A stretch of DNA of 41,007 nt from Bacteroidota bacterium. GTDB lineage: Bacteria; Bacteroidota; Bacteroidia; AKYH767-A; OLB10. Positions 38,259 through 40,419 of the stretch are shown one piece after another. Every line of letters begins with the position of its first letter. Position 1 is the stretch's first letter. Location of the stretch: positions 1 to 41,007 of the forward strand of contig CANGJU010000010.1 in NCBI GenBank assembly GCA_947453935.1, in the 5' to 3' direction. Made by a program: the position numbers and the translations under genes. The notes below the pieces were generated by a model. It searched no databases and was not told the origin of the DNA. It was given only the letters and a program-made list of their open reading frames with translations.

Positions 38259-39113
38259 TTAAACAGTATATCGGATATTATCAATCAAGCGAGGGCCCTC
38301 GGTTAAAACTGCAATGCATCCCTGAACGGCTGTTCCTTCTTCCCAATTGGTAATATCTTCTAAAGTTTCAGGGTTGACTAATTGAAAATACTGAACACTT
38401 AAATACGGGCTTTTTTGGATGTAGCGTTTAACGAGTTCAATTACAGCTGCCGGGCTATGATGTGGGATAAACTCTTTAGCCATTTCCATAGCTTTATAGA
38501 TTAATGGTGCCGCTTTACGTTGTTCAGGTGTAAGCAACAAGTTGCGTGAACTCATGGCAAGTCCATCTGATTCCCGTAAAGTAGGACAACCAACAATAGC
38601 GGTGGAGTGTTTAAGCATTGAAGCCATTTTTCGAATAATGGCTAGCTGCTGAAAATCTTTTTCTCCGAAGTAAGAAGTAGTTGGCTGAACAATTTCAAAA
38701 AGTCGGTTAACAACTGTTGCTACTCCTTTAAAATGACCTGTTCGGAAGGCGCCTTCCATCGTTTCTTCCATAAAACCAAAAGAAATATCCAATAGTTGAG
38801 CTCCATCAGGATAAATTTCAACTGGAGTTGGAAGAAAAACAAGATCGCAGCCGGCAGCTTTTAATAGTGCAATATCTGCATCAGGCATCCGAGGATAATT
38901 CTCTAAATCCTTAGGGTCGTTGAATTGCGTTGGATTAACGAAAATGCTACAAACGACGACATCGTTTTCAGATTTAGCTTTTTCTATTAATGATATATGA
39001 CCAGGATGAAGCGCTCCCATGGTAGGTACAAATCCTATGGACTTATTTTCCGTAAGTTGCCCATTTGAAAAAGCATGCATTTCTTGCGCATGATGAATAA
39101 TTATTATCTCCAA
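38259..39113 (-). CDS. panC: Pantothenate synthetase
   Basis: 284 residues from a TTG at 39113. This start gives LEIIIIHHAQEMHAF, equivalent to the usual M-E-I-I beginning, gives the normal PanC length and leaves 7 bases to the upstream stop. A TTG at 39173 would overlap the LutB-like gene by 53 bases, and the first ATG (39080) would remove the first strand. Motifs are FVPTMGALHPGH, VVCSIFVNPTQFND, GAFRTGHFKGVATVV, YFGEKDFQQLAIIRKM and SRNLLL. The enzyme joins pantoate and beta-alanine using ATP. panD, which makes the beta-alanine, follows. Confidence 0.94.
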   Translation of the reverse strand: MEIIIIHHAQEMHAFSNGQLTENKSIGFVPTMGALHPGHISLIEKAKSENDVVVCSIFVNPTQFNDPKDLENYPRMPDADIALLKAAGCDLVFLPTPVEIYPDGAQLLDISFGFMEETMEGAFRTGHFKGVATVVNRLFEIVQPTTSYFGEKDFQQLAIIRKMASMLKHSTAIVGCPTLRESDGLAMSSRNLLLTPEQRKAAPLIYKAMEMAKEFIPHHSPAAVIELVKRYIQKSPYLSVQYFQLVNPETLEDITNWEEGTAVQGCIAVLTEGPRLIDNIRYTV

Positions 39114-39120
39114 AATCTGA

Positions 39121-40419
39121 TTATTTAATATTGTGTTTCTCTCTCCATTGTTCGTTAAATGATTGCGGAGCAATAGAAGGCGTTTCTCTCAAACCACGGT
39201 CAGATTTGTAAAGGCCTTCCATGATGTATTTACCGGCTTTAATCCCTTTCCAGTTCATAATATCACGGTTAAGCATCGCCTTCTTCCAAAAGAAATAAAA
39301 CAATTTATTGGCTCTTGGCTCGAATCCTTTTTCTACAGACTCTTTCCTGTTTTCAATTAATAATTTTTGAATATCAATTTTCACAGGACAAATGTCCATT
39401 AAATTGCCATCTAAAAGGCTGTTTCTTACTGCTTCCTCTTGTGATTCAAAATTGTCTATTAACGGAGCTGTAACTCCTGATAAAGGAGTTGAAAAATGGC
39501 CATCTTGATTCGACATATATACTGGCCAATTAAACTGACAAGCCCCACATTTTATACAGGTTGAGGCTTGGCGTTGTACCTCATGTTCCAGCACCTTGCT
39601 TCGTCCGTTGTCAATGATTATTACATATAACTCCTCAGGACCATCTAAATCTTCTGGCTGCTTCGGACCAGTAATTATACTATTGTAAGTGGTTATTTTT
39701 TGGCCTGTTCCATAGGTGCTTAACAAAGGAAGAAATAGATCGAGGTAATTTAAACTTGGAAGAATTTTATCAATACCTGTTAAAACAATATGTGTTTTGG
39801 GGATAGAAGCACAAAGTTGAGCGTTCCCTTCATTTTCAGTTATAACTACTGCACCAGGATCTGCAATTAGAAAATTACAGCCGGTAATACCAATAGCCGC
39901 CTGCAAATAAGTTTCTCTCAAACGCTCTCTAATAACACCAACCAATTGGTCGGGCGACAAGTTGTTCAGTCCGAAATGAGAATTAATTTCATCCACCGAT
40001 TTATGAACTGCGGGTAAAACCATATGGCCCGAGTGATCATTCATGCTATCGGCAATATAATCCCCAGCATCGGTTTCAATGATGTCGAATCCTTCAATCC
40101 CAACTCGTTCTTTCAGGAGGATTTCTTCTGCTGTGGAGGATTTCGATTTTATAATTGACTGAGCTCCTGCGTTTTTGCTGATTTTTACAATGGCATCAAT
40201 GGCCTCTAAACTATCCTGAGCCCAGATTACTTTACCCCCACTTTTAATGAAGTTAGCTTCAAATTCAATTAGGTAAGTGTCAAGGTTTTCAATTGCTTTC
40301 CACCTTGCATGGGTCGCCCTTGCTCTTGCCAGCTCTAAGTTTTTAAACTGCTGACAAGCATCTTTAAAAACCACATCGTATTTGGCTTTAACAGAATGCA
40401 GTTCGGAGAATGGATTCAT
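39121..40419 (-). CDS. LutB/LldF-like LUD-domain iron-sulfur protein lacking one cluster
   Basis: 432 residues. The LUD domain (about 55-270) is well preserved, with SIIKSKSSTAEEI, ETDAGDYIADS, HMVLPAVHK, GITGCNFLIADPGAVVITEN and HIVLTGIDKI. It matches the L-lactate-oxidation protein LutB. The ferredoxin part is altered. The first motif, CIKCGACQFNWP, keeps C288, C291 and C294 but has W298 for the fourth Cys. The second motif reads DGNLMDICP, so only C344 remains (D337 and L340 replace two Cys). The four remaining Cys are exactly those that bind cluster I in 2[4Fe-4S] ferredoxin folds. lutA and lutC are not adjacent. panC follows after 7 bases. Confidence 0.88.
   Translation of the reverse strand: MNPFSELHSVKAKYDVVFKDACQQFKNLELARARATHARWKAIENLDTYLIEFEANFIKSGGKVIWAQDSLEAIDAIVKISKNAGAQSIIKSKSSTAEEILLKERVGIEGFDIIETDAGDYIADSMNDHSGHMVLPAVHKSVDEINSHFGLNNLSPDQLVGVIRERLRETYLQAAIGITGCNFLIADPGAVVITENEGNAQLCASIPKTHIVLTGIDKILPSLNYLDLFLPLLSTYGTGQKITTYNSIITGPKQPEDLDGPEELYVIIIDNGRSKVLEHEVQRQASTCIKCGACQFNWPVYMSNQDGHFSTPLSGVTAPLIDNFESQEEAVRNSLLDGNLMDICPVKIDIQKLLIENRKESVEKGFEPRANKLFYFFWKKAMLNRDIMNWKGIKAGKYIMEGLYKSDRGLRETPSIAPQSFNEQWREKHNIK

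Follow-up and report, generated by a model that had tools for sequence, protein, structure and literature searches.

A LutB homologue encoded in the window (the whole 41,007-nucleotide stretch of Bacteroidota DNA that was analysed) has kept four cysteines, which by motif topology would be exactly the ligand set of iron-sulfur cluster I, and has lost three, which would be exactly the set of cluster II, as the first-pass annotation had proposed. By descent the protein is a LutB, and it is best named a LutB-derived, single-cluster variant. With a probability of about 55%, we read it from its sequence as a single-cluster LutB that would still work with LutA and LutC, as one subunit of a LutA/LutB/LutC set whose genes are dispersed over the genome.

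The product consists of a LUD domain, a one-cluster ferredoxin domain and a conserved C-terminal tail (Table 1), the last of which persists even in strongly eroded LutB relatives. The LUD domain, described earlier as intact, is so: PF02589 matches the protein with 114.1 bits against a cut-off of 22.6, which gives it the LUD domain of LutB/LldF, and every LUD residue that is invariant among 29 seven-cysteine LutBs is present. The neighbouring panC gene is genomic context outside the Lut system; panC and then panD follow on the same strand as the LutB gene, in an order that matches the other loci of the window's genus (g1) and of g9. The start of panC is apparently the TTG at 39113, and a mechanical open reading frame from 39173 would overlap the LutB gene. 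Divergent ATP synthase genes lie on the other side, and there is no lutABC operon at this locus.

Table 1 Features of the LutB-like gene and its neighbour, in window coordinates
Feature	Position	Strand	Details and basis
LutB-like gene	39121..40419	minus	432 aa, ATG start, TAA stop; ORF list
LUD domain, residues 52-269	39613..40266	minus	PF02589, E 8.7e-33
First cysteine motif CIKCGACQFNWP, residues 288-299	39523..39558	minus	cluster-I Cys 288/291/294 kept
W298 (TGG), in place of the motif-1 cluster-II Cys	39526..39528	minus	same codon in 5/5 congeneric species
Second motif DGNLMDICP, residues 337-345	39385..39411	minus	C344 (last Cys, cluster I) kept
D337 (GAT), in place of a cluster-II Cys	39409..39411	minus	codon comparison and alignment
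L340 (TTA), in place of a cluster-II Cys; Ser in sister lineage G003/G004	39400..39402	minus	codon comparison and alignment
Conserved C-terminal tail, residues 351-432	39124..39369	minus	region identities; dN/dS about 0.02
panC (pantoate-beta-alanine ligase), TTG start	38259..39113	minus	7 nt past the LutB stop

The ORF translation bears out both motifs as first annotated, the one ending in Trp and the other with a single cysteine, and the full series reads C288, C291, C294, W298-P, then D337, L340, C344-P. With Trp, Asp and Leu at the cluster-II positions, the protein does not have the cysteines for both clusters that characterize a dicluster domain and conforms to the single-cluster ferredoxin pattern, that is, CxxCxxC plus a distant CP without cluster-II ligands. 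The Pfam Fer4_8 model scores 16.1 bits in the window protein (cut-off 27) and 44.2 bits in an intact relative. The reference set of 29 seven-cysteine LutBs, drawn from several Bacteroidota families and including both dispersed and operonic types, shares 44 invariant residues. The window protein retains 39 of them, and the five lost are C298, C337, C340, G305 and L330, the last two both located in the loop between the motifs. Random loss of three of seven cysteines gives the cluster-II set in 1 of 35 choices, and naive odds from the invariant-residue counts are about 6e-4 for the window genus and 3e-4 for a second genus, g4, all of these being post hoc figures that assume equal mutability. Just three further cysteines occur in the window protein, all of them in its N-terminal/LUD part. 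Two (C181 and C203) belong to the LUD domain, and the third (C22) is replaced by Ser in three of the five species of the genus. A supply of the missing cysteines by nearby residues, which had been named as a possible refutation, was not borne out, since the protein sequence holds no substitute ligands near the vacated site, C22, C181 and C203 all being distant from it in sequence.

Which motif cysteines belong to cluster I and which to cluster II is settled knowledge for dicluster ferredoxins. In nearly all intact LutBs examined, the cysteines of motif 2 stand at positions -7, -4 and 0, with Ser (occasionally Thr) at -10; Cys was found at -10 in a few cases (L088, L173, L180, L181, G021 and the fused LdhH-type proteins). 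The typical LutB cluster II has three cysteines, two from motif 2 and the fourth of motif 1, and the LutB Ser sits where an eight-cysteine dicluster ferredoxin has its fourth cluster-II cysteine. Because three cysteines and a Ser are the usual complement, cluster II of intact LutB might not be a [4Fe-4S] cluster, and it could be a [3Fe-4S] cluster or a Ser-ligated [4Fe-4S] cluster. The first-pass annotation had started from two [4Fe-4S] clusters, of which one was lost; the loss of one cluster's cysteines stands, and the starting point is better given as a seven-cysteine LutB whose second cluster may be of either of these kinds. Two AlphaFold models built from shallow alignments had a mean pLDDT of 41-42 and were uninformative on the cluster site. 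Searched by itself against the sequences of solved structures, the window protein gave no match, and a profile of intact LutBs matched, over the ferredoxin region, only subunits of F420-dependent formate dehydrogenase and of fumarate reductase.

Four congeneric species also carry W298, D337 and L340 together with all four cluster-I cysteines; their proteins are 84-93% identical to that of the window, and their assemblies come from different sampling projects. Sharing of these residues excludes the sequencing error or frameshift that had been raised against the observation, and although the window genome is a draft in 203 contigs and 79.9% complete, the gene has no stop or frameshift, so that a sequencing or assembly artefact can practically be dismissed. 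The codons at the three positions are fixed across the genus, apart from synonymous Leu changes. Where dS could be estimated, whole-gene dN/dS is about 0.03-0.06 across the genus, and in the ferredoxin region, where the cluster-I cysteines are invariant, it is about 0.04-0.08; several dS values are saturated, making the ratios approximate and their direction clear. LutB of the window genus has been under strong purifying selection since the cluster-II loss. No second, complete LutB was found in the window genome, and the congeners have one LutB each, the absence of a second copy being judged from these congeners, which are 84-99% complete.

In maximum-likelihood trees the window protein is nested, with 100% support, among seven-cysteine LutBs from its family, which indicates common descent with LutB, and trees and alignment agree that W298, D337 and L340 define a clade. 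A clade with 100% support contains the intact LutBs of g8 and g9, the intermediate g1b and the window genus g1. The intermediate (G003, G004), which is the sister of g1, has the second motif LCGSSRDVCP and six of the seven cysteines, one cluster-II cysteine being gone. Genus g4 (G010, G011), which falls outside this clade, has the motifs CIRCGACQYHDP and LSAADTEGCP, with the same three cysteines gone (D/S/D) along with L330, and retains 40 of the 44 invariants. A tree constrained to unite g1 with g4 is worse by 39.7 log-likelihood units, and with a p-AU of 0.0026 a single origin of the two losses is rejected; the same three cysteines were lost independently in g1 and g4. Loss is also seen in g6 and g2 (DP/LDNRAAGICP and LDGRHSSVCP), which may represent a third occurrence, in one or two events, and which are less informative because most LUD invariants are gone as well and the branches are long. 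At the vacated cluster-II positions, g4 (L023/L024) has D, S and D with Ser at -10, and g6 (L031) has D, D and A with His at -10. Speculatively, these oxygen and nitrogen ligands might be able to bind one metal ion.

No lutA or lutC gene is adjacent to the window gene, as had been remarked, but both are present in the same genome as single copies on other contigs, LutA with two CCG domains (C91, L110 5254-5982) and a LutC-type LUD protein (C68, L111 6029-6670). Dispersal of lutA, lutB and lutC is the usual arrangement in the family, intact relatives included, and is not part of the change. The conserved cysteines of LutA are all kept in 11 of 11 genomes aligned, across every genus examined. 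Judged by eye, an MFS transporter gene and an aconitase-like gene are near the LutA gene, and the neighbours of LutA and LutC are similar in most relatives checked. The LutC-type gene directly follows ftsH and precedes cdsA, in the window genome as in most of the family's genera (L111 5021-8748; L114, L116, L118, L120, L122, L124, L128). Other Bacteroidota have a compact lutABC operon, additionally or instead, often beside a rhamnulokinase-type kinase gene (L070-L089; kinase named by eye), and some genomes with the operon also carry a dispersed LutB, so that two Lut sets coexist. In g8 and g9, a pyruvate carboxylase gene (L098 823-4260; L105 13029-16466; named by eye) is found close to LutB, a proximity that possibly reflects a functional link to lactate/pyruvate metabolism. 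The window's family yielded neither an LctP-type lactate permease nor a full-length FMN-dependent lactate dehydrogenase; candidates for the latter were rejected, as the Pfam model gave only partial stretches, probably from other TIM-barrel enzymes. We know of no organism in which lactate oxidation by a dispersed Lut set has been shown.

Erosion of LutB extends well beyond g1 and g4 within this family. The LUD domain is eroded and the cysteines are kept in g3, g5 and G021, and both are eroded in g2, g6 and the rest of g10. In G001, all ligand cysteines but one are lost, and G001 and G002 have no LUD match. In g2, g6 and g10, identities are 0.40-0.54 in the N-terminal part and 0.32-0.40 in the C-terminal tail, compared with 0.23-0.26 in the LUD part. 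Eight LutB homologues of the same family (L026, L028, L029, L030, L031, L032, L034 and L039) are 313-394 aa long with a strongly eroded LUD domain, and in such short homologues the N-terminal helices and the C-terminal tail are still conserved; some of them, as in G021 and G012, keep all Fe-S cysteines and others do not. LutB was undetected in G014 (99% complete), which has LutA-type CCG and LutC-type LUD genes, and LutC was undetected in G001 and G002, which have LutA and a degenerate LutB. Outside the family, all 109 LutB-type sequences examined keep their cysteines (69 non-duplicate rows, 35 assessed by pattern and five fused LdhH-type proteins assessed by eye), indicating that, among the sequences examined, the erosion is special to the window's family.

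A working single-cluster LutB is favoured by the selectivity of the loss, its repetition in g4, the g1b intermediate and the strong constraint, and also by the presence of LutA and LutC, the alignment to LdhH and the lack of a full-length FMN-dependent lactate dehydrogenase. In such a protein the cluster-II half of the ferredoxin domain would be gone, and the four-cysteine site most likely binds one [4Fe-4S] cluster. LutA, LutB and LutC would still form one complex, in which electrons from a 2-hydroxy acid, probably L-lactate, would travel from the LUD side by way of cluster I directly to the cysteine-rich LutA, and cluster II would be bypassed, leaving the electron chain unbroken. The missing LctP permease and the want of a dispersed set with demonstrated lactate oxidation count against this reading. 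Moreover, since relatives in the family show an eroded LUD domain (g2, g5, g6, g10) or have lost LutC (g2) or LutB (G014), the Lut system is possibly dispensable in this family. The strongest competitor, less probable by a good measure and still to be taken seriously, is early decay: the system is being abandoned, cluster II, whose three-cysteine site may be the weaker one, was the first part to go, and LutB is left with residual or no redox function. The loss of LUD residues in g3, g5, g10, g6 and g2, the nearly ligand-free G001, the missing LUD match in G001 and G002, the missing LutB in G014 and the restriction of erosion to this one family all fit early decay. Decay would, however, hardly leave the gene intact in five species, with dS near saturation, a low dN/dS, a constrained ferredoxin domain and 39 of 44 invariants, nor would it be expected to halt two independent lineages at the identical point. 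The first-pass annotation's preference for a coherent adaptation over decay is supported by the constraint, the retained invariants and the recurrence in g4, and is weakened by the family-wide erosion of LutB.

A change of role, in which LutB would serve as a scaffold or as an iron, oxygen or redox sensor through its remaining cluster without transferring electrons, appears rather improbable. The N-terminal helices and C-terminal tail would then be binding surfaces, and it is these parts that are most conserved in the eroded relatives; g2, moreover, retains LutB despite the loss of LutC. An intact LUD domain with intact LutA and LutC, as in the window genus, would nevertheless be needless for a pure scaffold or sensor. 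Completion of a second cluster or of a single-metal site by Asp337, Ser334, C181/C203 or a partner's cysteine seems very improbable. Asp can ligate a [4Fe-4S] cluster in some ferredoxins, Ser334 is conserved in the genus, and g4 (D/S/D) and g6 (D/D with H) have potential ligands at the former cysteine positions; W298 and L340, however, cannot ligate, which leaves at most an Asp and a Ser, and the remaining cysteines are either unconserved (C22) or part of the LUD domain.

More broadly, cluster II of LutB may be a dispensable module that otherwise intact Lut complexes under selection have cleanly shed at least twice, with the vacated site in g4 and g6 perhaps holding a single metal; we offer this generalization tentatively, as a possibility that falls short of even odds. 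If it is true, cluster I alone suffices for substrate oxidation and for passing electrons on to LutA, and the first LutABC lactate-oxidation step has to be placed at the LUD/cluster I/LutA side. In a published domain analysis, LutA, LutB and LutC figure only as putative iron-sulfur components whose roles are unresolved (PMC3924224). LutBs that in nature lost one cluster twice independently while keeping their partners reveal which cluster evolution could discard, and they constitute a natural test of cluster function and ready-made proteins for probing the electron path. The annotation 'LutB' conceals this difference in cofactors. The surprise is moderate, given that small ferredoxins are already known to have lost one cluster of a dicluster domain.

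The window protein shares the order of LUD and then ferredoxin domain with LutB/LldF (YkgF; TIGR00273), intact homologues of the same order included, and differs from them in the W/D/L residues at cluster II, the sub-cut-off Fer4_8 match and the lack of a lutABC operon. Its TIGR00273 score of 304.5 bits is below the equivalog cut-off of 444.8, which is not decisive because intact Bacteroidota LutBs miss this cut-off too, even operonic ones (350, 421 and 430 bits; one passes with 464). A non-exhaustive search found no published case of a LutB that has naturally lost a cluster; in Propionibacterium, L-lactate use is abolished by a LutB variant with an Arg/Cys change at position 417, which is no obvious cluster ligand (PMC12285252). 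LdhH (NF045670) is a fused L-lactate dehydrogenase with LUD, dicluster and CCG parts, and since LutB aligns to its residues 25-437 and LutA to residues 466-706, a shared LutA/LutB complex is supported. Compared with LdhH, the window system is split into separate genes and has lost one cluster, whereas the five LdhH-type proteins inspected by eye have eight cysteines. SdhB/FrdB have a related ferredoxin motif, and the intact-LutB profile weakly matches solved FrdB. SdhB has no cysteine seven residues before the last, and LutB has none ten before the last. The second site of SdhB is a three-cysteine [3Fe-4S] site that resembles intact LutB, whereas the window protein is without a second site entirely. 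Single-cluster ferredoxins derived from 2[4Fe-4S] ferredoxins exist, for example in Desulfovibrio and Thermotoga. Bacterial ferredoxins with a single [3Fe-4S] cluster have also been described (PMC9868604). Single-cluster ferredoxins resemble the window protein in that the cluster-II ligands are gone and the cluster-I site is retained; they are, however, small electron carriers, whereas the loss in the window protein sits within a subunit of a multi-subunit oxidoreductase.
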